64,000 bases of DNA from an uncultured Spartobacteria bacterium. Lineage in GTDB: Bacteria; Verrucomicrobiota; Verrucomicrobiia; Chthoniobacterales; Chthoniobacteraceae. The position numbers and the translations under genes were made by a program. Below, piece by piece: positions 38,863 to 50,176 of the stretch. Within the stretch, counting starts at the first letter, position 1, and each line of letters starts with the position of its first letter. Below the pieces are notes generated by a model. The model made no database searches. It was not told where the DNA came from and saw only the letters and a list, made by a program, of their open reading frames with translations. The stretch spans positions 1 through 64,000 of the forward strand of contig CAIXGS010000048.1 in the NCBI GenBank assembly GCA_903919125.1. Reading direction: 5' to 3'.

Positions 38863-39282
38863 GTTTGGCTTTTGTTCTCGATTGTTCAGCGACGCTGCCT
38901 TGGATTTTTGGCGATGAAGCGACCGACGCTACGGACCGTTTTCTGAACGAGTTAACATTGGGGGCACGCGTGGGTTCCTTCTCTGTAGCACCTGGAACTC
39001 GCAAATGTATTGGTAGGAGCGCAACGCCGGATTCGGCTTGATCAAGCCGCTTGCGAGGCGTTTCTTTCCCATCTGGGCGAATACGATATTCGTATGGATA
39101 CCGAGACTGTTCCCCGAGCATGGAGCAAGACATTGGATCTTGCGCTGCTTCATAAGCTCTCGGTTTACGATGCTGCCTATTTGGAATTGGCGTTACGCTG
39201 GGATCTTCCTCTCGCGACGATGGATGGCGCACTGCTTTAGGCCGCTCGCGTTTCTGGAGTCAGACTATCTCTCCAAGCTTGA
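38859..39282 (+). pseudogene. Broken VapC-type toxin (PIN domain)
   Basis: The first part, LAFVLDCSATLPWIFGDEA, carries the first PIN Asp and runs in one frame to about 38970. After a frame change the rest reads WVPSL, stop, HLELANVLVGAQRRIRLD, then TLDLALLHKLSVYDAAYLEL and ALRWDLPLATMDGALL, stop, AARVSGVRLSLQA. Two TAG codons interrupt it: 38986-38988, where VapC proteins usually have Trp, and 39238-39240, where Gln would fit. The total length, 424 bp, is one base more than a multiple of three, matching one insertion or a two-base deletion near 38970. The catalytic acidic residues are otherwise still recognisable, so the damage is recent. Confidence 0.85.
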
Positions 39283-39585
39283 TTTGCTGATGGCAGTTTC
39301 CGTGCGTGCGTAACACAGGGGGGGACACTTCCCTTCCCACCGTGCCCGTACATCGGCATTGCTTTTGTGATCCCAGCCATAGCTGTGCACCAAGTTGAAC
39401 CCCACAGTCGCGAGTGTCGGGAAGTCAGCCGTGCTGGTCGAATATATGCCAATTGGGAATAACAGCTTACCGTTGAACTTAATACACTGCTGACCATTGA
39501 GCTGTACGGTTGCTGGTTCAACGGCGGGCAGCGGTGCCAGCGGCGGGAGCAAAAGTAAGGAAAGGAGAGTTTTGCGGAGTTTCAT
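39265..39585 (-). pseudogene. Truncated secreted glycoside-hydrolase-like protein
   Basis: A signal peptide (MKLRKTLLSLLLLPPLAPLP) is followed by VQLNGQQCIKFNGKLLFPIG, IYSTSTADFPTLATVGFNLV and HSYGWDHKS. This is how the first strands of secreted TIM-barrel glycoside hydrolases (GH2/GH42-like) read, with the product breaking off after about 80 residues. The remaining 28 residues (from ADVRARWEGK) do not continue the fold and reach a stop inside the neighbouring VapC remnant. A deletion near 39345 therefore joined the end of the carbohydrate locus to the toxin locus. It lies 28 bp downstream of the beta-helix/esterase gene and would be its operon partner. Confidence 0.6.
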
Positions 39586-39613: not shown

Positions 39614-41995
39614 TCATTTCGCGGAGACAAGCTGCTTATCGAGAAAATCGAACAGCGCGGGCAGTGTCGCTCGCACCGTCCCGAAATCATGTGCGCCGTC
39701 CACTTCACGGAAGGTGTGGGCAATGCCGGTGCCTGTGAGTGCAGCGTCGAAGTTGCGATTCATCTGCGCGTCGAAAGCTGCCTTGCCGGTAATGAAGAGC
39801 ACGGACTTTCCACGCAGGGCCTCGACCTTGTTCATGCAGTTGAATGGACGCCATGCCTTTTCATCCGAACCGAAGAGTGATGAGACGGGATAGTTCTCCT
39901 CTTTGGGCAAATGCGGGTTGGGAAAATCGAGCAGCGCAATGCTGGTCGCGACGGCTCCGATCTCAATGGGGAAGGTCTGCGCAAAACGCATGGCACCATA
40001 GCCGCCCATGCTCCAGCCGCAGATCCCTGTGCGCTCGGGCTTCGAGGAAACCGGAAGTGTTTGCCGCACATGATCGAGCAGCTCCCGAAGCATGGATTCA
40101 TACCGAGACGTTGGCTCAGCTTGGCTGTCGAGATACCAGCCGCGCCGACCATCTGCGAAGACGATGGCAAACTTTTGCTGGAACACGAGCGCGCGAGCGT
40201 CAGCGTCTTCGGCAATGGTCCGGTGATTGCGCCCATCGCCATGTAGGAGGAGCACCAGCGGCCAGCCCCCTGCGGGCGGAGTGCCTTTAGGCATGTAAGC
40301 GGAGTAGTCGACCACGCGACCGAGCGCCTGAGACTGGAATGTGAGGGCAGGGATTTCAGCGCCCACGGCGTTGGGTGCGGACTCCGTATTGCCTCGAAGG
40401 GTCACGTTTTCACAACCGACCGCCGGTGGAATATCGCGCACGGGGCCGCTGAAAATGTTGTCCGCTACAAGGATGGTGTCGCCACCCGGAGCGAAGGTGA
40501 TAGCGTACCCGGCGTTGGGACCGCTGGTGAAAATATTCCCGCGCACGGTAACGTTGCCGTAGCGACCACTCGGCTCGTGCGTGGTGAAATAGAGTTCGGA
40601 GTAGCGCTCGTAGTCGCCGGTGAGGAAGCTGCGGCGTCCGCGGCGCGGGTCGCGTTCGCACTTAGTCGTGTTATTCACGAAGACGTTGTCCGCGAGAATG
40701 AAGTTGCGCGGTTGATTGATCCAGGAGCCGCGTCCGCCGTTGCGGAACGTGTTGCCGATGATGGTCACGTCCTCGCACGATTTTTCTACGCTGATGACGC
40801 GCGATCCGTTTGTCCCGTCCACGGTGTTCCCTGTGATGGTCGCGTTCTTGCAAAATTCGGCGAGGAAAAAGGCCCCCATGCGCGAGCCGGTGATATGGTT
40901 ATTGGCGAAGGTGATGCCGCGCGATTTCTGGATGTGCATTGTGTCGCCGAGTGCGCTGAAGCGGTTGCCGCGCACGATGACGTTCTCGCAGCCCACAAGG
41001 TCGAGCGCGCCTTTGCCCGGCCCGCTGCCCGCTGGTGCGTAGAGGGCAAGATGGGCTTGAAATAAATGACTGATGAGCCGCGCCTGCGGCCCTGCGTCGC
41101 TAGCGAACTTGATTGCCTCACCGCCGACTTTGTCCGCGATGCGGATGAAGTCCGGTGTAGTCTCGATGACAAAATACTGCCGCCCGCGCACGAGGTTCGA
41201 CGGTAGCGAATCGCCGAAAAAACAAACAGTATCGTGGCCACGCTCCGCCTCGGCACCCTCTCGCTTTTTCGAAACAGGCAACGGATTGGAGTTGTCGAAG
41301 AACACACGCTCGTCGTCCGCCTTCATCCTCACCGGCCCGCGCACGAGGTCGTTGCGGAAATACTTCGTGGCCATCGCGCGCTCCGCGTCGCTGTAGTCCT
41401 CGGGCCAGACCGTGATTTGCCAAAGATAGCCGTAGTCCCACATGAATTTCCCACTGCGCTCAAGCGTGCAGTTCTCCACCGTCACGTTGCGCGCAAATGT
41501 CTCCACCGCGCGCTCACTGCCTTTCTTTTCCGCACCGAGCACGGTGATGACCGCACCTGCGAGGCCGTCTGACGTGACGTCGCGAAAGGTAAGATTCTCC
41601 GTGCGACCGCCCGGCGTCGTGGTGACGAGAATCGCCCGCGTGTTCGCATTCGGCTCCCACGAGTTGTCGCCCTTTGTATTGTCAAAAACGTGCCCAGTGA
41701 AATGGCCGCCGAACCAACGAAAGTCGCTCACGTTCTCACCGGCAAAAAGAACCACCCGCGCCTTGTCGCCGAGTGTCTTCGGTAAATGAAACCGCGCCCC
41801 GTAGGCTGACACCGTCGTGTGCGAGGCAATCGGCAGCGGCTTCGTGCCATCGAGTTCGTAGTCGCCTGGCGGAATCGTCACCACGCCGCCGTGCTCCCCG
41901 ACTGGAGCGAGAATGGCTGCAAGTTTCGCGGAGTCATCGGCGAACGCGGGTGAGACAGCTAACGCGAGGATTGAGAGAAGCACGGTTATGTTCAT
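39614..41995 (-). CDS. Secreted beta-helix (pectate-lyase-like) / serine esterase fusion
   Basis: The 793-residue protein has a signal peptide (MNITVLLSILALAVSPAFA). A right-handed parallel beta-helix covers about 20-545, shown by GGVVTIPPGDYELDG at the cap and repeated coils such as NVIVRGNRFSALGDTMHI, ATITGNTVDGTNGSRVISV and DVTIIGNTFRNGG. The last 230 residues form an alpha/beta hydrolase of the esterase D/feruloyl-esterase type: PLVLLLHGDGRNHRT, nucleophile Ser662 in GWSMGGYGAMRFAQ, and a C-terminal His in VDGAHDFGT. The two halves suggest binding or cutting of an acidic polysaccharide combined with removal of ester groups. ATG 41995 starts the signal peptide. It is the ninth gene of the minus-strand carbohydrate locus. 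Confidence 0.88.
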   Translation of the reverse strand: MNITVLLSILALAVSPAFADDSAKLAAILAPVGEHGGVVTIPPGDYELDGTKPLPIASHTTVSAYGARFHLPKTLGDKARVVLFAGENVSDFRWFGGHFTGHVFDNTKGDNSWEPNANTRAILVTTTPGGRTENLTFRDVTSDGLAGAVITVLGAEKKGSERAVETFARNVTVENCTLERSGKFMWDYGYLWQITVWPEDYSDAERAMATKYFRNDLVRGPVRMKADDERVFFDNSNPLPVSKKREGAEAERGHDTVCFFGDSLPSNLVRGRQYFVIETTPDFIRIADKVGGEAIKFASDAGPQARLISHLFQAHLALYAPAGSGPGKGALDLVGCENVIVRGNRFSALGDTMHIQKSRGITFANNHITGSRMGAFFLAEFCKNATITGNTVDGTNGSRVISVEKSCEDVTIIGNTFRNGGRGSWINQPRNFILADNVFVNNTTKCERDPRRGRRSFLTGDYERYSELYFTTHEPSGRYGNVTVRGNIFTSGPNAGYAITFAPGGDTILVADNIFSGPVRDIPPAVGCENVTLRGNTESAPNAVGAEIPALTFQSQALGRVVDYSAYMPKGTPPAGGWPLVLLLHGDGRNHRTIAEDADARALVFQQKFAIVFADGRRGWYLDSQAEPTSRYESMLRELLDHVRQTLPVSSKPERTGICGWSMGGYGAMRFAQTFPIEIGAVATSIALLDFPNPHLPKEENYPVSSLFGSDEKAWRPFNCMNKVEALRGKSVLFITGKAAFDAQMNRNFDAALTGTGIAHTFREVDGAHDFGTVRATLPALFDFLDKQLVSAK

Positions 41996-42118: not shown

Positions 42119-42844
42119 TCAAGGCAGCTCCCGCACGCGCAACTTCCGAAACTGAATAGGCGACCCTTCACTTTCCAAGCACAGATAACCCTTCGCCGGC
42201 TCAATCGCAGTGCCGCCGGAAACCTCTTCGCCGTTCACCCAGAGGCGCACTTCGCCGTTGATGGCGCGGATGTAGTAATGGTTCCACTCACCGTGCCCTT
42301 TACTTAAATGCTTGCGCGGGAAGCTACGTTTGCCGTCAGGAGACAAGGGGGGAAACGGGGTCATTTTGACGCGGACAGGGAAAACGTCGCCGTTGGTACC
42401 GAACCAGTCTGTCTTGGCGCCCTTGGCCTTCATCATCTCGGTGAAGCCGTGGTCGAGAATCTGGACTTCGATACCATCCGGCAGGCGCTGCTTGCCCTCG
42501 AGGGTCAGCTTCTCGAGCGAATCGGGCTTTGCCCAAACAAACACGCCGGAATTGCCAGCGGACTTTTCGTGCATCCATTCGACCACCATTTCGAAGTTGG
42601 TGAATTCCTTGGTGGTGCGCAGCACGCCGATGGGTTCACCGGTGCAGTGCAGGACTCCGCTTTTCCAGGCCCAAGTATTTTCGGGTGTATTGACGATTGC
42701 GAAGTCGCTCTCTACGAGCGAACGCCACCCCGGACTTTCATCATCGATAAAAGCGCGAACGGTTGCAGCGGGGGAAGCGGTATCTTGCGCATTGGCAGTC
42801 GCGGCAACGCACAAGATCAGACTGAGGATGAGGGTTTTATTCAT
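42119..42844 (-). CDS. Secreted DUF1080 (3-keto-glycoside hydrolase-like) protein
   Basis: The 241-residue product has a signal peptide (MNKTLILSLILCVAATANA) and one DUF1080 domain: NTPENTWAWKSGVLHCTGEP, FTNFEMVVEWMHEKSAGNSG, VFVWAKPDS, LPDGIEVQILDHGF and RLWVNGEEVSGGTAIEPAKG. The Glu in the GIEVQILD block is the conserved acidic residue that in DUF1080 structures lines the active site. It would cleave a 3-keto-glycoside outside the cytoplasmic membrane. It follows the ThuA-like gene by 25 bp. Confidence 0.9.
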   Translation of the reverse strand: MNKTLILSLILCVAATANAQDTASPAATVRAFIDDESPGWRSLVESDFAIVNTPENTWAWKSGVLHCTGEPIGVLRTTKEFTNFEMVVEWMHEKSAGNSGVFVWAKPDSLEKLTLEGKQRLPDGIEVQILDHGFTEMMKAKGAKTDWFGTNGDVFPVRVKMTPFPPLSPDGKRSFPRKHLSKGHGEWNHYYIRAINGEVRLWVNGEEVSGGTAIEPAKGYLCLESEGSPIQFRKLRVRELP

Positions 42845-42869
42845 AAATTAAAGACAGAGTTGAGCAGGC

Positions 42870-43883
42870 TTATTTCTTCAAGTCCTGCGGTAGGACGCCC
42901 GGCTTGAGCCCTTTGGCGCCAGCCGGCCCGGGATTATATTCTCCCGGAATATCCATGTTGGAGCTCGGATCAATGGCGTCCTCCAGATTCATGCACCACA
43001 GGCAGGCATTGGCGAGCATCCGGCGGAATGCTTCGATCTTAAATGCGTCTCCATGGCCCATCGTGGAGGTGAACACCCGTGCCGTTTTCCCCGTGGCCCC
43101 CGTATAAGACTTCGTCCAAGCAATGGGTTGGGGAATCTTTTCCGCAACAGGTTTGGCCTCGGACGTCCAGGCATCCAAGGGTTGCCCCAACAGGATGGGC
43201 GTGCTGTCGCCAGACAAAGCGGAGCTGATCCCATACACGTCATCGGGTATCCAAAACCCCGAGCGGATTCCCTTAAATATCGGGTGCGCGGAAGCCGTTT
43301 CCGCAATGTCGCAGCGGGTACTCTCAACGAGGTTTTTGCCGTAGTGCGAGATCCATGTTTCGCCAAGCACGAGCCGCCCCCAACCGCCGCTTGGGTCTTT
43401 GCTGGCGGAGTCGAAACGGGCATACGGGCTATCAGGGCGTTTTGCGTACTTGAAGGGATGCGTGGCATTGCGAATGCCAAGAATTGGTTTGCCCGACTCG
43501 GTGTAGTCGATGATGTGCTTCATCTGCTCATCGGGCAGTTCCCTCCAGCGTAAAAACGCTACCAGAAGATCCGCAGTATCCAGCTTCTCGAGGCCGGGAA
43601 TGTTGTCTTTGATTTTCGGATTGATCGTTCCATCTGTGGGATCGATGGCAAAGAGCACTGTGCACTTGAAGCCCTGACGGGAGAGAATCTGCGCCATCTT
43701 GGGCATGGATTCCTCGGAGCGGTAGGCCTCCTCGGCGGCTATAAAGACAATGTGTTTTCCCTTTCCTGGGCCATTTTCACCTTCAGAGGTAAACCAAGGA
43801 TCAGCCGCCAAGGCGCTAATAGAGATGCATGCGCCTAGGATAAGCACCGCAAAAAAACCGGAAACGATGGAAGAATTACTCAC
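42870..43883 (-). CDS. ThuA-like domain protein, exported
   Basis: The 337-residue protein has a signal peptide (VSNSSIVSGFFAVLILGACI, with GTG start) and a ThuA-like class-I amidotransferase-type fold. Blocks are GKHIVFIAAEEAYRSEESMP, LLVAFLRWRELPDEQMKHII, GKPILGIRNATHPFKY and TMGHGDAFKIEAFRRMLANA. ThuA proteins accompany 3-keto-sugar pathways, for example with trehalose in rhizobia, but their exact reaction is not established. The longer frame from 44132 overlaps the neighbouring gene and is rejected. It lies 53 bp after the NagB-like gene. Confidence 0.87.
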   Translation of the reverse strand: MSNSSIVSGFFAVLILGACISISALAADPWFTSEGENGPGKGKHIVFIAAEEAYRSEESMPKMAQILSRQGFKCTVLFAIDPTDGTINPKIKDNIPGLEKLDTADLLVAFLRWRELPDEQMKHIIDYTESGKPILGIRNATHPFKYAKRPDSPYARFDSASKDPSGGWGRLVLGETWISHYGKNLVESTRCDIAETASAHPIFKGIRSGFWIPDDVYGISSALSGDSTPILLGQPLDAWTSEAKPVAEKIPQPIAWTKSYTGATGKTARVFTSTMGHGDAFKIEAFRRMLANACLWCMNLEDAIDPSSNMDIPGEYNPGPAGAKGLKPGVLPQDLKK

Positions 43884-43936
43884 GTGGAATTTTGTTTGAG
43901 AGATAAAATTGGATGGGCGATTCGACACAGGTTCCG

Positions 43937-44875
43937 TTAATGCATTTCTACCGAGCAGCTTCCCAAGCCGCCGCGGTAATAATTGAATTTCACGTTCGGA
44001 TGATCTGCCAGTAGCGACATGGGGACTGCGGAGTCCGCGATGCCCTTGGAAATCATCAGTGCCGTAAGGCGCTGCCCCAGAGGGTTGTCGTGCATCCCTG
44101 CGTGCCAGATGCTCACTTTTTCCGCTTTCCATGTTTCCCGCGGCCCCACAGTGATCGCCTTTCGCGGAACCATGGTGATGTTCCCGCCGCCGGAGGTGCG
44201 CGCGTTTTGTCCCAGCGTCACCGGATGGAGATCCACGATGCGGGTTGCGAGTTCGCGGTATTCAGCGGCACTCGGAGGCTCGTTTTTCCATTTGCCTTCG
44301 CGCTTGAGAGGATCGTTAAACGCCCAATGTTTGATTTCTCCCTGTCCTCCCTGCATGACGGCGCAGCGCACGCCGGAGTCCCATGTCTTTTGAAAACCAG
44401 CCACATCGGCCTTTGGAAAATGGAGGTTGGCCTCGGGCATCTCGAGGTTTTTATGGATGCGATTAAAGCACAGTTCACGATCGGCTTTTTCAAAGGAGAG
44501 CGGGTGAGTCGGCGCCACTTCGGTTTGTGTGGTTTCATCGAACCATTCATCCATGCCCCAGAAGTGAGCGTGTTGGAGGCTTAGTCCGAGTTCGTTGACC
44601 AGTCTGGCTACTAGGGGAAGTTGTTCGGTCGGGCCGATGGGGCCGCAGATTCCCACTGGGTTGTCGGCGGTGGCTTGGCGCCAAGCGGCGATATATTCGA
44701 GGGCTTCTGCGAGGTAAAAATCCTGCAGCGTATCGTAGAGGGCAACCTCAAAACCGGGGCGGGAAAGCTGTAGCAGATCGCGTTCGGTGAGCGCGGCTGC
44801 GTCGTTAATGAGGTCGGATTCAAGCGTGGTGTAATCCCACCAATCGGCGGCGATGTAACTGGTTTTGCGTGGCAT
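43937..44875 (-). CDS. Glucosamine-6-phosphate isomerase/deaminase-like protein (NagB family)
   Basis: The 312-residue protein has the NagB/SIS-like fold: [20 protein letters not shown] near the phosphate loop, [14 protein letters not shown] (equivalent to the FNMDEY catalytic Asp block) and [12 protein letters not shown]. The latter corresponds to GxGxDGHIAFNEP of NagB. In that segment the acidic residue before the His is Glu, the spacing is one residue longer and the final Glu is Asp. The enzyme may therefore act on a variant amino sugar or not deaminate at all. The start at 44875 removes 70 unlikely residues. The neighbours, a deacetylase and a sugar-type transporter, support amino-sugar catabolism. 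Confidence 0.8.
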
Positions 44876-44928
44876 ATAAAATGTCTTAAGATTGATAGTT
44901 GCAACGTGCGGCTGTCGTGGGGAGTTGG

Positions 44929-46134
44929 TTAGCTCGAGGGACTTCCTTCGTGTTTGTCTTCGCGGTAGAAAATGGCGAAAACAACAGCGAGAACGGCCCC
45001 CATCACGGCGGGAATCAGCCATATCGATTGCCAGGAATGGCTGCCCGCTTCGGTGTAATGTTGGGCCGCAACTCCCGAAAGCCACGATCCCACAAACATG
45101 CCGGCCCCCAGCGTGACAATCGCGTGCAATCCCTGGGCGGCACCTCGGATATCCTCGCCTGCGTACTTATCCACGAGCATCCGTCCCATGACGAAGATGA
45201 AGTCGTAGCACATGCCGTGCAGCAGAATGCCGGTGAAAAGCATCCAGATGGCGGAAGGGTTTTGATGAAACACAGCAAAGAGCCCGAAGCGGACGGCCCA
45301 CGCGCTGATCCCCAGCAAAAGAATTCCCTTGGAACCGACACGGCTTAGAAACGCGGGTAAAAGTAGCAGGAAGACCACGTCTGAAACCTGGCCCAAAGTC
45401 ATTTTTGCCGCGGCATTTGGAATGTGCATCTCGTTCATAAACACATTCATCCAGCTGAAATAGAAACTCAGCGGCACGCAGATCAAAAAGGAACAGAGCA
45501 TGAATGTGGCAAACGCTCTGTTGCGCAAAAGCTTGAGGGCGTCGAATCCCAGAAGAGTCCCCAGAGAAATTGGCGCCCCAGTTCCCTTAGGCGGCGTGTG
45601 CGGCAGAGTGAGTGAATAGACCCCCATGATCAAAGCGGCGCCGGACGCTAGCCGGAACATGCCGGCGTTGTCCTCCAGCTTAAACCAACTCACCGCGAGG
45701 CCCGATGCGATCCAACCGACGCTAGCCATGACCATGACCAGAGGGAATTCCTTGGCGGGGTTTTTGGAGTGATGCAAGGCGAGCGTGTTCGTCAGTCCGT
45801 GGCAGGCCATGTAGGTGATCGTGTAGGCCAGCAGCACGGGATAGAACTGTTGGAATTCCTTCAGTGTCGAAATCCAGTAAAGCAGCCCAGCACCAACAAG
45901 ATGCAGACACGCGAGAAGACGTTGCGTAGCAAAAAAACGATCGGCGATAATCCCCACGATGAAAGGAGACACCATGGCGCCAACCGCAGTGCTTCCATAA
46001 GCCAAGCCCACCTGGCCTCCCAAAAAGCCCAGCTTTGCCGTGGTGTAAGTTCCCATGGTCACGTACCACGCCCCCCACACAAAGTAGTGCAGAAAGACCA
46101 TGACCCAAAGGCGGCTAAGGAGAATGAAATTCAT
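44929..46134 (-). CDS. MFS transporter, nucleoside:H+ symporter (NupG-like) family
   Basis: The 401-residue protein has about 12 transmembrane segments and the family N-terminus [40 protein letters not shown] and [20 protein letters not shown] follow, as in the NHS family (2.A.1.10). The C-terminal half includes [19 protein letters not shown]. In Verrucomicrobiota and Bacteroidota many such proteins are thought to import sugars rather than nucleosides. Its place in a sugar locus suggests it takes up the released mono- or disaccharide. It follows the PIG-L deacetylase gene by 34 bp. Confidence 0.88.
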
Positions 46135-46168
46135 AGGGAGGGGTGGGGATTAATTTTTTGGAGAAAAA

Positions 46169-46981
46169 CTAACGGGGGACTAGCAGGGCTGATTCGTAAG
46201 ACTCATCGATGGCGCAGTCCGCCTCCAAGGCCTCGCGGAGTGGATCAATGTCTTTGGCGCTAAAACCCAAATGCAGGTGGCGCCGCCAACCTTCCGCGTG
46301 CTCAAACTGTCCGGAGAGTCGCCCCACCGCGCGGGAGAGATCATCCATACTGGACAGGTAGGAATCCATTCCCTGACTGGCGTCCAGCCAGTGTTTCTGA
46401 CTGACATGCAGCGCAAGCGCCTCGCGTTTGCCCGCGTGAACCGCCGTCGTATTTACGTAAAGCCCAGCCCGGATTTTCTGCCGCAACGGGTCGCTCAGGC
46501 CATGCGGCATCGCATGATACACGGTGACGTCATCCGTAAACGAGGCACGGGACGGTTCGGTTTGAAAGTTTGGAATCCCGTGTGCAAACGCCGCCGTAAC
46601 CGCAAGTCGCGAGGCGTTCATGTGATCCTCCATGTAGTCTTGTGGAGAATGGGTTAGTACAATGCTCGGCCGCGTCTCGCGCACAATCGCAGCGACTTTT
46701 TTGAGCATCTCGGGGCCGTAGAAAAGCTCCAAGTCATCTGCAATGGGAGGATAAAAGCTCGCCCCCAGAGTGCGTGCGGCTGCTTGCGCTTCTTTGAGTC
46801 GGGTTTCGGCCGTGGTGAGGGCGTCCATCTGAACAGAGCCGCCGTTTCCCGAGCAGAGGTTCAGATAGTGCAGCTCCCAGCCGCGCAGGCCCAGCTGAAG
46901 AAGGGTGCCCGCTGCGACGAATTCGATGTCGTCGGGATGGGCGAATATTGCCAGAGCAGATTTGCGGGATGGGCTGGCCAT
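46169..46981 (-). CDS. PIG-L family N-deacetylase
   Basis: The 270-residue protein has the zinc-binding motif AHPDD (H15, D17, D18) in LAIFAHPDDIEFVAAG. The later ligand His is in SIVLTHSPQDYMEDHMNAS. The family de-N-acetylates GlcNAc in glycolipids, bacillithiol and related conjugates. The start at 46981 has no good ribosome site; a TTG at 47005 would add 8 residues. With the NagB-like gene it fits removal of the acetyl group from an N-acetylated sugar before further breakdown. Confidence 0.9.
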   Translation of the reverse strand: MASPSRKSALAIFAHPDDIEFVAAGTLLQLGLRGWELHYLNLCSGNGGSVQMDALTTAETRLKEAQAAARTLGASFYPPIADDLELFYGPEMLKKVAAIVRETRPSIVLTHSPQDYMEDHMNASRLAVTAAFAHGIPNFQTEPSRASFTDDVTVYHAMPHGLSDPLRQKIRAGLYVNTTAVHAGKREALALHVSQKHWLDASQGMDSYLSSMDDLSRAVGRLSGQFEHAEGWRRHLHLGFSAKDIDPLREALEADCAIDESYESALLVPR

Positions 46982-47027
46982 AAAAAGGGAATTGGACTTT
47001 GCCAAACTGGAGTCAGCAAATTGGCAA

Positions 47028-47720
47028 TCACAGTGGGGTCACAAGCAGGCTGCGAAACGCGACGGGGCCGTGATCCCCTTGTATAAGAAGCGGCCCCAGA
47101 GGTGCCTCGTCATTGAATTTGCTCGCGCGTGTCGGACCGGAGCACTCGACATTCTCGTGAATCAGTTCTCCGTTGTGCAGGACTTTAACGAAGGTCGCGT
47201 TAGAAACCTTTTTCCCATTGAAATCAAAGCGCGGCGCCTTGAAAGTGACGTCAAAGGATTGCCACTCTCCGGGCGGCTTACTCGCGTTTAAGCGCGGGGC
47301 TTTTCCCTCAAAACCAGCATTGTCTTTCCACCGTTGGTAAATCGCACCGCAATCGTGCGTACCGATCTCCGCCTTGCCGTAGCTGTCTAAAATCTGCACC
47401 TCGTATCTGCCCATGAAATAAACTCCGCTGTTGGAATCCTTCGGGACGCAAAACTCCACGTGCACCTGACAATCCCCGAACTCCTGCACGCTCATGATAT
47501 TGACGCTTTTTCCGGCTGCACATCCCAGCGTCAGTCCCATTCCAGCGGTTACCGAAAACGACTTCGGGGCGTCGGGATTCAGTGCGAGAGAGCCTACGAT
47601 GGACCACGGGGACGTAGGCTCCCGCCAACTCTGCAAATCCTGTCCGTTAAAAAGTTGGAGGTCGCCTGCAAATCCGAGACTGGTGGAAAAGAGAACACCA
47701 AAGAGAATAAATAGTTTCAT
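47028..47720 (-). CDS. Secreted DUF1080 (3-keto-glycoside hydrolase-like) protein
   Basis: The 230-residue product has a signal peptide (MKLFILFGVLFSTSLGFA) and one DUF1080 domain opening with LQLFNGQDLQSWREP. The core is FGDCQVHVEFCVPKDSNSGV, YFMGRYEVQILDSYGK and GTHDCGAIYQRWKDN. The C-terminal strand is GPLLIQGDHGPVAFRSLLV. The Glu in RYEVQILDS occupies the conserved active-site position. It follows the second Gfo/Idh gene by 67 bp and is distinct from the domain at 42119. Two different DUF1080 enzymes in one locus suggest two linkages or a two-step cleavage. Confidence 0.92.
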   Translation of the reverse strand: MKLFILFGVLFSTSLGFAGDLQLFNGQDLQSWREPTSPWSIVGSLALNPDAPKSFSVTAGMGLTLGCAAGKSVNIMSVQEFGDCQVHVEFCVPKDSNSGVYFMGRYEVQILDSYGKAEIGTHDCGAIYQRWKDNAGFEGKAPRLNASKPPGEWQSFDVTFKAPRFDFNGKKVSNATFVKVLHNGELIHENVECSGPTRASKFNDEAPLGPLLIQGDHGPVAFRSLLVTPL

Positions 47721-47787
47721 GGAGGAAAGAAGATGAGAAAAAAATGGGTCGGCATGCTTGCTGACCCTACGAGGAGTCAAAAGACGT

Positions 47788-48816
47788 TTATGCCAAATGC
47801 ACGGGCGCTCCGCCTTGAGCGGCGCTTTGGTCCGCCGCAAAGATGACTTCAAAGGTTCGAAGGGCATCTTTGAAACTGGTGAGAGGCATGTGTTGGCCCG
47901 CTTCCAAGGCGCCGAAAAACGCTTCGAACTGCGACTGATAAGGGTGGTCGTTTACGTCGCCGGAATCCGCCAGTTGAACCGCAAGTTGACTCCAGCGTCC
48001 CTTATCGGACTTCAGCTTTTGAGAGTGGAACTTATCGTCAAGAAGACTCCCCTGACTGCCAACAAGGTGGGTATGAAAGTAATACGGCTGGAAACAATCC
48101 ACAACGGCAGCGCACTTCCCGACGGCCCCATTCTTAAACTTCAAAAGCGTCACCGAGGAGGTGTCGTATTCATAGGGCGCAAAAACGTCGCTCTTGGACT
48201 TCGTACTCATGCTCGTGACGCTCTCGACTTCACCGCCCATGCACAACAACAGAGCATCGAGTGCGTGGCATCCGGCTGAGAGCAGGGCGCTGCCACCTTC
48301 CTTTTTTCCCGTGTTCCAACGGAACTGGCCGTACCATGGTCCAATACCATGATAATAATCAACTTCCGCGTAGTGGAGTTCCCCCAGCAGGCCTTGCTCG
48401 ATCAAGGCGCGGGTCGCGATCATTTGCCCGGAGAAGCGCAATTCAAAGCACACGCATCCCTTGACTCCGTTCGCGTCTGCAGCGGCGACGATCGCCCTGA
48501 CCTCCTCCAGCGAATTGGCCATCGGCTTTTCTAGAATGATGTGTTTTTTGGCTTTAGCCGCGGCGATTGCTTGCTGACAGTGCAGGCTGGGGTAGCCGGT
48601 GATGTCAACGATGTGAATATCGGGGTCGGCGAGAAAAGCGTCGAAATCTTGGTACGCTTTGATGTTGCCTCCATGTTGTGCGCTCAGTTGCGAACTCTCC
48701 AGTGGCCGTGACGAATACACGGCGCTGACCTGAGCCTGCTGTGTCGCGTTGATTGCTTCGATATGGGCTCTCGCAGCCCAGCCATAACCGATAATTCCAA
48801 CATTGAATTTCTTCAT
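47788..48816 (-). CDS. Gfo/Idh/MocA family oxidoreductase, cytoplasmic
   Basis: The 342-residue enzyme has the dinucleotide loop GYGWAARAH (residues 10-18), the EKP motif (E96-K97-P98 in ILEKPMANS) and a C-terminal alpha/beta domain with AEVDYYHGIGPWYGQFRW. Unlike the neighbour at 48878 it has no Tat signal, so it works in the cytoplasm. One likely role is to oxidise or re-reduce the 3-position of the sugar once it is inside the cell. It follows the Tat-exported enzyme by 61 bp. Confidence 0.92.
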   Translation of the reverse strand: MKKFNVGIIGYGWAARAHIEAINATQQAQVSAVYSSRPLESSQLSAQHGGNIKAYQDFDAFLADPDIHIVDITGYPSLHCQQAIAAAKAKKHIILEKPMANSLEEVRAIVAAADANGVKGCVCFELRFSGQMIATRALIEQGLLGELHYAEVDYYHGIGPWYGQFRWNTGKKEGGSALLSAGCHALDALLLCMGGEVESVTSMSTKSKSDVFAPYEYDTSSVTLLKFKNGAVGKCAAVVDCFQPYYFHTHLVGSQGSLLDDKFHSQKLKSDKGRWSQLAVQLADSGDVNDHPYQSQFEAFFGALEAGQHMPLTSFKDALRTFEVIFAADQSAAQGGAPVHLA

Positions 48817-48877
48817 AGGTCTAAAGTGTTTGATATGACGCGGTAAAAAACATCAACGTTGTTTTTTGGGCACACGT

Positions 48878-50176
48878 CTAGATCAACTTTGTCCGGCCTG
48901 GTGACGCCATGGCTGCCACGGGTAATTCCATGTCCCACTTTAGGTTCTGTGGGAAAATATTTTCCTGAGATTTGAGCATATGCTCCCAGGTCACCTCAAG
49001 ACCGGTATATGCGGCCATGCGTCCCATGATCCCAGCTAGGGTACTTTGGCACATCCATTCCCCATCATTCATGGCCGCTCCGCTCCGTATGGAATCATAT
49101 AGATCCTTATGTTCTTGAAGGTACATCCCAAGGTGCTTGCCTTCGGCTTTCCAAGGATTTGGTCCGGTAATCTGTGCCAGGCTCCACTTGCTGGTAGCGA
49201 TTCCAGTGGCTCCGGTGATGTAGTCGCTATTGTCGTTGAAGCATCCGCTAATCTGGCGCTGCGCCATGACCCCGCGCACTCCGTTGGCCCATTCGAAATT
49301 CACTTCAATGTGATCGAAAGTGTTTCCGCCGGGATTTGGATTCTGTCGACCGCCCGTCGCCGTGCATCGGAGCGGCGGTTTGTCTTCCATGGCCCAGAGC
49401 ATTTTATCGACGCTGTGAACGGCTTGTTCTACAAACCCGTCGCCGGAGAGCCAGGTGAAATTGTACCAGTTCCGCAGCTGCCATTCGAGGTCCGTAACTC
49501 CCTCTTTGCGAGTCTCAAGAGCCGGCATGGGCTTCACGGAACCGCCTAAATAAGTGTGATAGAGTCCACGCACCTCTCCAATCGCGCCGGAGTGGATTCG
49601 CCCAAAAAGATCCCTCCGAGCTGCGTCAAAACGCCAGCAAAAACCGGCGGTGACACTAAGCTTCTTTTCCTTGGCTCGGCGCGCAGCCTCGATGACGGCA
49701 CGCACTCCGACTGCATCGGTTGCCATCGGTTTTTCGCAAAAGATATGTTTCCCCGCCTCGACTGCGGCAGCGAAGTGCAGAGGCCGGAACCCTGGAGGCG
49801 TGGCCAGCAGCACGCAATCGATGTCGGAAGCAAGAACCTGCTTGTAGGCGTCCAGGCCGGTGAATTGGCGTTCTTTGGGAACGTCCACGCGCTCTGGAGT
49901 GCCCGCGTATTTGGCGGTCAGCCCGCTGACTGCAGTTTCCACTTTTTCGCCAAAGACATCGCCCACAGCCACCAGTTGAACGTTGGGGTCAACGGTGAGT
50001 GCATCATTGGCAGCACCTGTTCCGCGGCCTCCACAGCCGACTAAGCCAATGCGTATACGATCTTTTTTATTCTGGGCGTGCAGGATGGAGGGGAACGCCA
50101 TCGCGCCGGCAGCGAGAGATGAAGCGCGCAGAAAATTGCGGCGTGTTAGATCAAGTTGGGATTGGATGGAATTCAT
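48878..50176 (-). CDS. Gfo/Idh/MocA family oxidoreductase, Tat-exported
   Basis: The 432-residue protein has a Tat signal (TRRNFLRASS, residues 11-20) ending in SILHAQ, the Rossmann loop VGCGGRGTGA (46-55) and the family EKP (148-150, FCEKPMATD). The C-terminal domain has LRNWYNFTWLSGDGFVEQAV and VDKMLWAMEDKPP. It closely resembles the gene at 10125-11429. It is the first gene of the minus-strand carbohydrate locus and diverges from the AraC-type regulator 77 bp away. It could make the 3-keto intermediate for the DUF1080 enzymes in the periplasm. Confidence 0.93.
   Translation of the reverse strand: MNSIQSQLDLTRRNFLRASSLAAGAMAFPSILHAQNKKDRIRIGLVGCGGRGTGAANDALTVDPNVQLVAVGDVFGEKVETAVSGLTAKYAGTPERVDVPKERQFTGLDAYKQVLASDIDCVLLATPPGFRPLHFAAAVEAGKHIFCEKPMATDAVGVRAVIEAARRAKEKKLSVTAGFCWRFDAARRDLFGRIHSGAIGEVRGLYHTYLGGSVKPMPALETRKEGVTDLEWQLRNWYNFTWLSGDGFVEQAVHSVDKMLWAMEDKPPLRCTATGGRQNPNPGGNTFDHIEVNFEWANGVRGVMAQRQISGCFNDNSDYITGATGIATSKWSLAQITGPNPWKAEGKHLGMYLQEHKDLYDSIRSGAAMNDGEWMCQSTLAGIMGRMAAYTGLEVTWEHMLKSQENIFPQNLKWDMELPVAAMASPGRTKLI

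Follow-up and report, generated by a model that had tools for sequence, protein, structure and literature searches.

A bacterium of soil or freshwater encodes, in a single reading frame, a signal-peptide-like start, a long right-handed beta-helix and an esterase-like alpha/beta-hydrolase domain, and the same architecture recurs in a second genome of the same genus. The gene lies on the minus strand of the 64,000-nucleotide stretch of DNA that was analysed as a whole (the window). It can best be read, with a probability of roughly 0.45, as coding for a secreted polysaccharide-active helix enzyme with a tethered accessory hydrolase, in which the helix is predicted to be catalytic, the hydrolase to act as an esterase and the substrate to be a polymer.

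The fusion gene and its counterpart in a second genome

The frame opens with an ATG at 41995 and proceeds over 793 codons to a stop at 39614-39616 (reading-frame analysis of the window, minus strand). Pfam places Beta_helix and NosD at residues 329-450 and PF00756 (Esterase) at residues 555-780, with no further family above cut-off on the 793-residue protein. The gene is composed as follows:

39614..41995, minus strand: complete fusion gene, 793 amino acids; single frame without internal stop; gap-free homologue at L001:899-3277
41939..41995, minus strand: signal-peptide-like N-terminus, residues 1-19, from reading of the sequence (MNITVLLSILALAVSPAFA before DDSAK) and a hydrophobic helix over residues 2-18 in the AF2 model
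40388..41938, minus strand: right-handed beta-helix domain, residues 20-536 (Pfam Beta_helix/NosD; AF2 pLDDT mostly >90); stand-alone homologues stop here
40337..40387, minus strand: linker, residues 537-553, with low model confidence after the helix and less conserved against L001
39617..40336, minus strand: PF00756 esterase-like alpha/beta-hydrolase domain, residues 554-793 (Pfam E=7e-11; PDB matches 7xrt, 2uz0, 6vh9)

Related loci were collected from public genomes, 80 in total, and in 73 of them the helix gene was complete enough to be extracted. One of these loci, L001 (genome G006, of the window's genus), has the same helix-esterase architecture. Its codon alignment with the window's fusion gene contains zero gaps at a dS of 0.41 in the helix and 0.405 in the esterase, and an omega of 0.10 and 0.24, respectively, indicates purifying selection in both parts. 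That two genes were joined by a frameshift, one of the two refutations named in the earlier note, or by an assembly error is excluded by this separate, identically built and selected copy; its probability is practically nil and the fusion is considered real. The L001 contig is labelled Akkermansia muciniphila, which is probably wrong, as a genome search leads to the window's genus.

The fusion is also as rare as had been supposed. In most other homologues the frame stops a few residues past helix residue ~536, and about 70 other helix genes are devoid of the esterase tail. Within the window's family, a near-full-length helix gene is found in 9 of 40 genomes, with the tail in two of the nine; one genome of the family (G026) is apparently that of Chthoniobacter flavus, since the contig coordinates of its helix gene agree with those of L031, the stand-alone helix locus of this species. 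In a 55-sequence tree of the helix, the two proteins with an esterase group in a single clade (100/99): the tail has a single origin and is known from two genomes. As this clade sits among mixed Verrucomicrobiota and Planctomycetota sequences, its position suggests horizontal transfer of the helix. A second fusion within the window's genome was sought and discarded, since PF00756 and Beta_helix matches coincide at this gene only; equally, the long open frame of L104 was rejected as a fusion, the helix having its own start on reading. Literature searches on the helix family and on fusions of a beta-helix with a feruloyl esterase retrieved no report of either.

The beta-helix and its invariant groove

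With a 55-sequence alignment as input, the AF2 model shows stacked three-strand rungs of a right-handed beta-helix over residues 20-540, with pLDDT mostly >90; structure prediction and the Pfam Beta_helix/NosD matches thus agree with the long helix initially recognized. AF2 from the single sequence (pLDDT 34) was of no use. With 54-83% identity among homologues of Verrucomicrobiota, Planctomycetota and Lentisphaerota, the helix is, as judged from sequence, a conserved secreted protein that mostly stands alone in three phyla. Among distant members, L110 apparently has no signal peptide, while L111/L112 are without an insert of about 90 residues. The features within the helix are:

41420..41449, minus strand: invariant motif K183-FMWDYGYLW-192, with K183, W186, D187, Y188 and W192 invariant in 46 sequences
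41096..41371, minus strand: small insert, about residues 209-300, missing from the G422 homologue (L111/L112), which is otherwise similar, so that the insert is dispensable to the fold
40661..40945, minus strand: putative active-site groove, rungs 351-445, with D351, H354, R372, E380, R399, E404, K405, R422, W425, N427, Q428 and K445

Assignment of the helix to a known beta-helix lyase, hydrolase or epimerase family (PL1, PL3, PL6, CE8, GH28) was rejected, as neither a family profile nor a solved member matched by sequence. Pfam returned just Beta_helix/NosD on 37 helix members, two of which add the generic Pect-lyase_RHGA_epim, and a PDB sequence profile search of the helix against solved structures gave nothing convincing (best E=0.01). 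The top PDB matches in Foldseek are enzymes of polysaccharides (AlgE6/AlgE4 C5-epimerases, GH110, GH91 inulin fructotransferases, RbmB lyase and phage tailspikes), which speaks for a polysaccharide-active helix. They share 8-12% identity with it, and the lyase- or epimerase-like nature ascribed to the helix in the earlier note is unproven. Even the best fold match, the A-modules of the mannuronan C5-epimerases AlgE4 and AlgE6 (2pyg, 5lw3), reaches only 11-12% identity and a TM-score of 0.27-0.36 on query length. A scan for the AlgE/AlgG signature YG-x-DPH, restricted to the exact string YGFDPH, found no occurrence in the helix.

On the other hand, the proposed search for conserved residues on the helix revealed an invariant charged groove. 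Conservation was scored over 46 sequences, distant members included, in which the groove residues are mostly invariant (E380 and K405 in 96%). The invariant set, mainly charged and aromatic across three phyla including the divergent members, encompasses K183, W186, D187, Y188, K328, D332, D351, H354, R372, R399, E404, R422, W425, N427, Q428, K445, R454, E467 and Y469. In our reading of sequence and model, the rungs repeat with a period of 24 residues, such that Q356-E380-E404-Q428 form one column, with D351/R399 and S398/R422 beside it in the same register. The groove looks catalytic, which suggests that the helix is an enzyme; it would act on a (probably acidic) polysaccharide held in the groove of D351, H354, R372, R399, E404, R422 and K445, with K183/W186/D187/Y188 alongside.

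Alternatively, the helix might serve as a carbohydrate-binding module and direct the esterase in the way in which CBM89, a non-catalytic right-handed beta-helix N-terminal to a capybara GH10 xylanase, directs its enzyme (PMC8810776). This precedent of a beta-helix joined to a carbohydrate-active domain and the fusion of the helix to several different partners, as common for such modules, speak for binding. However, the helix is usually found alone as a secreted protein, unusual for a binding module, and its dense invariant column of Asp, His, Arg, Glu and Lys resembles an active site more than a binding face, which renders a mere targeting role quite improbable. The PDB sequence profile search with the helix as query did not return a CBM89 chain.

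The esterase-like domain and its missing acid

With 42.7 bits against a cut-off of 22 and coverage of profile positions 1-246 of 251, the C-terminal domain is, by its sequence, a member of the PF00756 (CE1/FrmB-like) esterase family. It shares the GxSxG serine, the histidine and the HG oxyanion region with FrmB (6vh9), EstA (2uz0), the ferulic acid esterase 7xrt and BiFae1A (5vol), but differs from them in its position behind a beta-helix and in the replacement of the canonical aspartate:

40010..40012, minus strand: nucleophile Ser662 in GWSMG, residues 660-664 (alignments to homologues and FrmB)
39776..39778, minus strand: Ala740 at the canonical catalytic-acid position, aligned with FrmB Asp204 and with Asp in eight homologues; Ala also in L001
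39689..39691, minus strand: catalytic His769 in a conserved GxH column

The catalytic triad of FrmB consists of Ser120/Asp204/His233 (PMC8318587); its numbering is offset by 3 from the 6vh9 chain, as hand-counted in the printed alignment, which fits both Asp and His. Among nine homologues from relatives, the acid column is Asp in all eight that reach it, the frame of the ninth ending earlier. In alignments including 6vh9, the canonical aspartate after strand beta-7 is absent from both fusion proteins. Hence, while the GxSxG motif with Ser662 was correctly recognized in the earlier note, its notion of a complete esterase is not supported: Ser662 and His769 are kept, and the canonical acid is Ala740 in both proteins. 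The acid might instead be provided by Asp742 or by Asp690, whose column, at the end of strand beta-6, frequently holds an Asp. AF2 confidence is low over the esterase half, because just two sequences cover it.

The chemistry of the hydrolase half has most likely been altered or lost. If lost, the domain would be a pseudo-esterase, kept for binding or as a spacer beside a catalytically active helix. Compatible with this are the alanine in both fusion proteins, an esterase omega that exceeds that of the helix and the near-neutral omega over the last 14 residues of the fusion between window and L001. Such a loss is nevertheless regarded as unlikely, since the domain keeps Ser662, His769 and its HG oxyanion region, and residues 660-739 evolve with an omega of 0.05-0.09 between window and L001 just where a dead domain should relax. 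This strong constraint means that the esterase domain is under selection whatever its role. In the preferred reading of a helix enzyme with an accessory hydrolase, one Chthoniobacteraceae lineage has attached a CE1/FrmB-like hydrolase domain at the C-terminus, which would strip acyl or aromatic ester decorations from the helix-held chain using Ser662, His769 and one of the two candidate substitute acids.

Partners, neighbourhood and meaning

In the window the fusion is the last gene of a minus-strand run of sugar genes. This run (42119-50176) consists of two Gfo/Idh/MocA oxidoreductases, DUF1080 (3-keto-disaccharide hydrolase), PIG-L, a nucleoside/sugar symporter, a gene without Pfam match at 1e-8, ThuA and a second DUF1080, followed 123 bp on by the fusion. 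Reported members of DUF1080 include one that hydrolyses 3-ketotrehalose and another active on xanthan (PMC9007349, PMC5673643); the run ahead of the fusion is likely a sugar cluster of the 3-keto-glycoside type, and the context suggests sugar-polymer use. Just downstream of the fusion, a 106-residue frame (39265-39585, minus strand) without Pfam match resembles the broken-off start of a secreted enzyme for sugar polymers; its homologue at L001 is a fragment that runs into sequence resembling a DUF1080 C-terminus.

The domain-architecture comparison shows the esterase tail in two genomes and LamG-like and FAD_oxidored domains as other partners of the helix. A LamG-like C-terminal domain of ~400 residues is fused to the helix of four Planctomycete homologues (L022, L025, L026, L027). 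In L003 and L006 the same protein, 67-81% identical, has a gene of its own immediately upstream of that for the helix (by 22 and 0 bp, respectively), and a random C-terminal addition was therefore dismissed:

L003:6636-7925 and L006:6736-8001: separate LamG-like genes, very conserved, ~400 residues

Equally, a FAD_oxidored domain is fused N-terminally to the helix in one Lentisphaerota genome (L046:3-3215 and, on the complementary strand, L106), and genes for such proteins lie directly upstream of the helix in L001, L005 and L016. The window has no FAD_oxidored neighbour. The gene of L001 (L001:1-864) is 89% identical to that of the Verrucomicrobiaceae locus L061, whereas the helix proteins of window and L061 are only about 56% identical, which points to a mosaic or transferred neighbourhood.

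Esterase genes adjoin the helix as well. A BD-FAE-type secreted esterase is encoded 0-68 bp upstream in seven loci of Verrucomicrobiaceae type (L059, L061, L062, L064, L065, L067, L075), in some of which it stands behind an SDR and a xylose-isomerase-like gene, and a CE15-like gene is located downstream in L016. The BD-FAE pairing may represent a single event in Verrucomicrobiaceae. The coupling of helix and esterase envisaged in the earlier note is suggested by these adjoining genes, and the occurrence of three different hydrolase families as partners makes a real functional link more likely. Further arrangements have been encountered: a C-terminal helix tail of ~250 residues without Pfam match (L008:9600-10352) and another secreted, beta-helix-like protein whose gene immediately follows that of the helix (L002:9631-11685 and L007:5110-6393, 65% identical mutually). 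The idea of a universal operon around the helix was abandoned, as the immediate neighbours vary by clade.

Proteins that combine a depolymerising and a deesterifying activity on one chain, such as PL1-CE8 and similar lyase-esterase fusions, are known. CE8 is itself a beta-helix, while the esterase half here is an alpha/beta-hydrolase. Fusions of the Xyn10Z type (CE1-CBM6-GH10, mentioned in PMC8810776) equally tie a feruloyl-esterase-family domain to a polysaccharide enzyme or binding module; in contrast, the partner here is a beta-helix of unassigned family in place of CBM6-GH10 and the esterase is C-terminal.

The fusion itself is one lineage's variation on the well-known theme of CAZyme-esterase fusions. 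Of wider importance is the helix, which is secreted, 54-83% identical over three phyla and lined by an invariant charged groove, yet has been assigned no activity. Tentatively, it might found a family of its own, of secreted beta-helix enzymes acting on polysaccharides, and serve as a hub that exchanges fused or adjoining partners, here a serine hydrolase with a relocated acid. As the partner kinds, LamG-like proteins, FAD oxidoreductases and esterases, also adjoin stand-alone helix genes, they provide testable hints about the pathway. Equally, the missing triad acid turns the esterase half into a test of whether a hydrolase of the PF00756 family can use a relocated acid.
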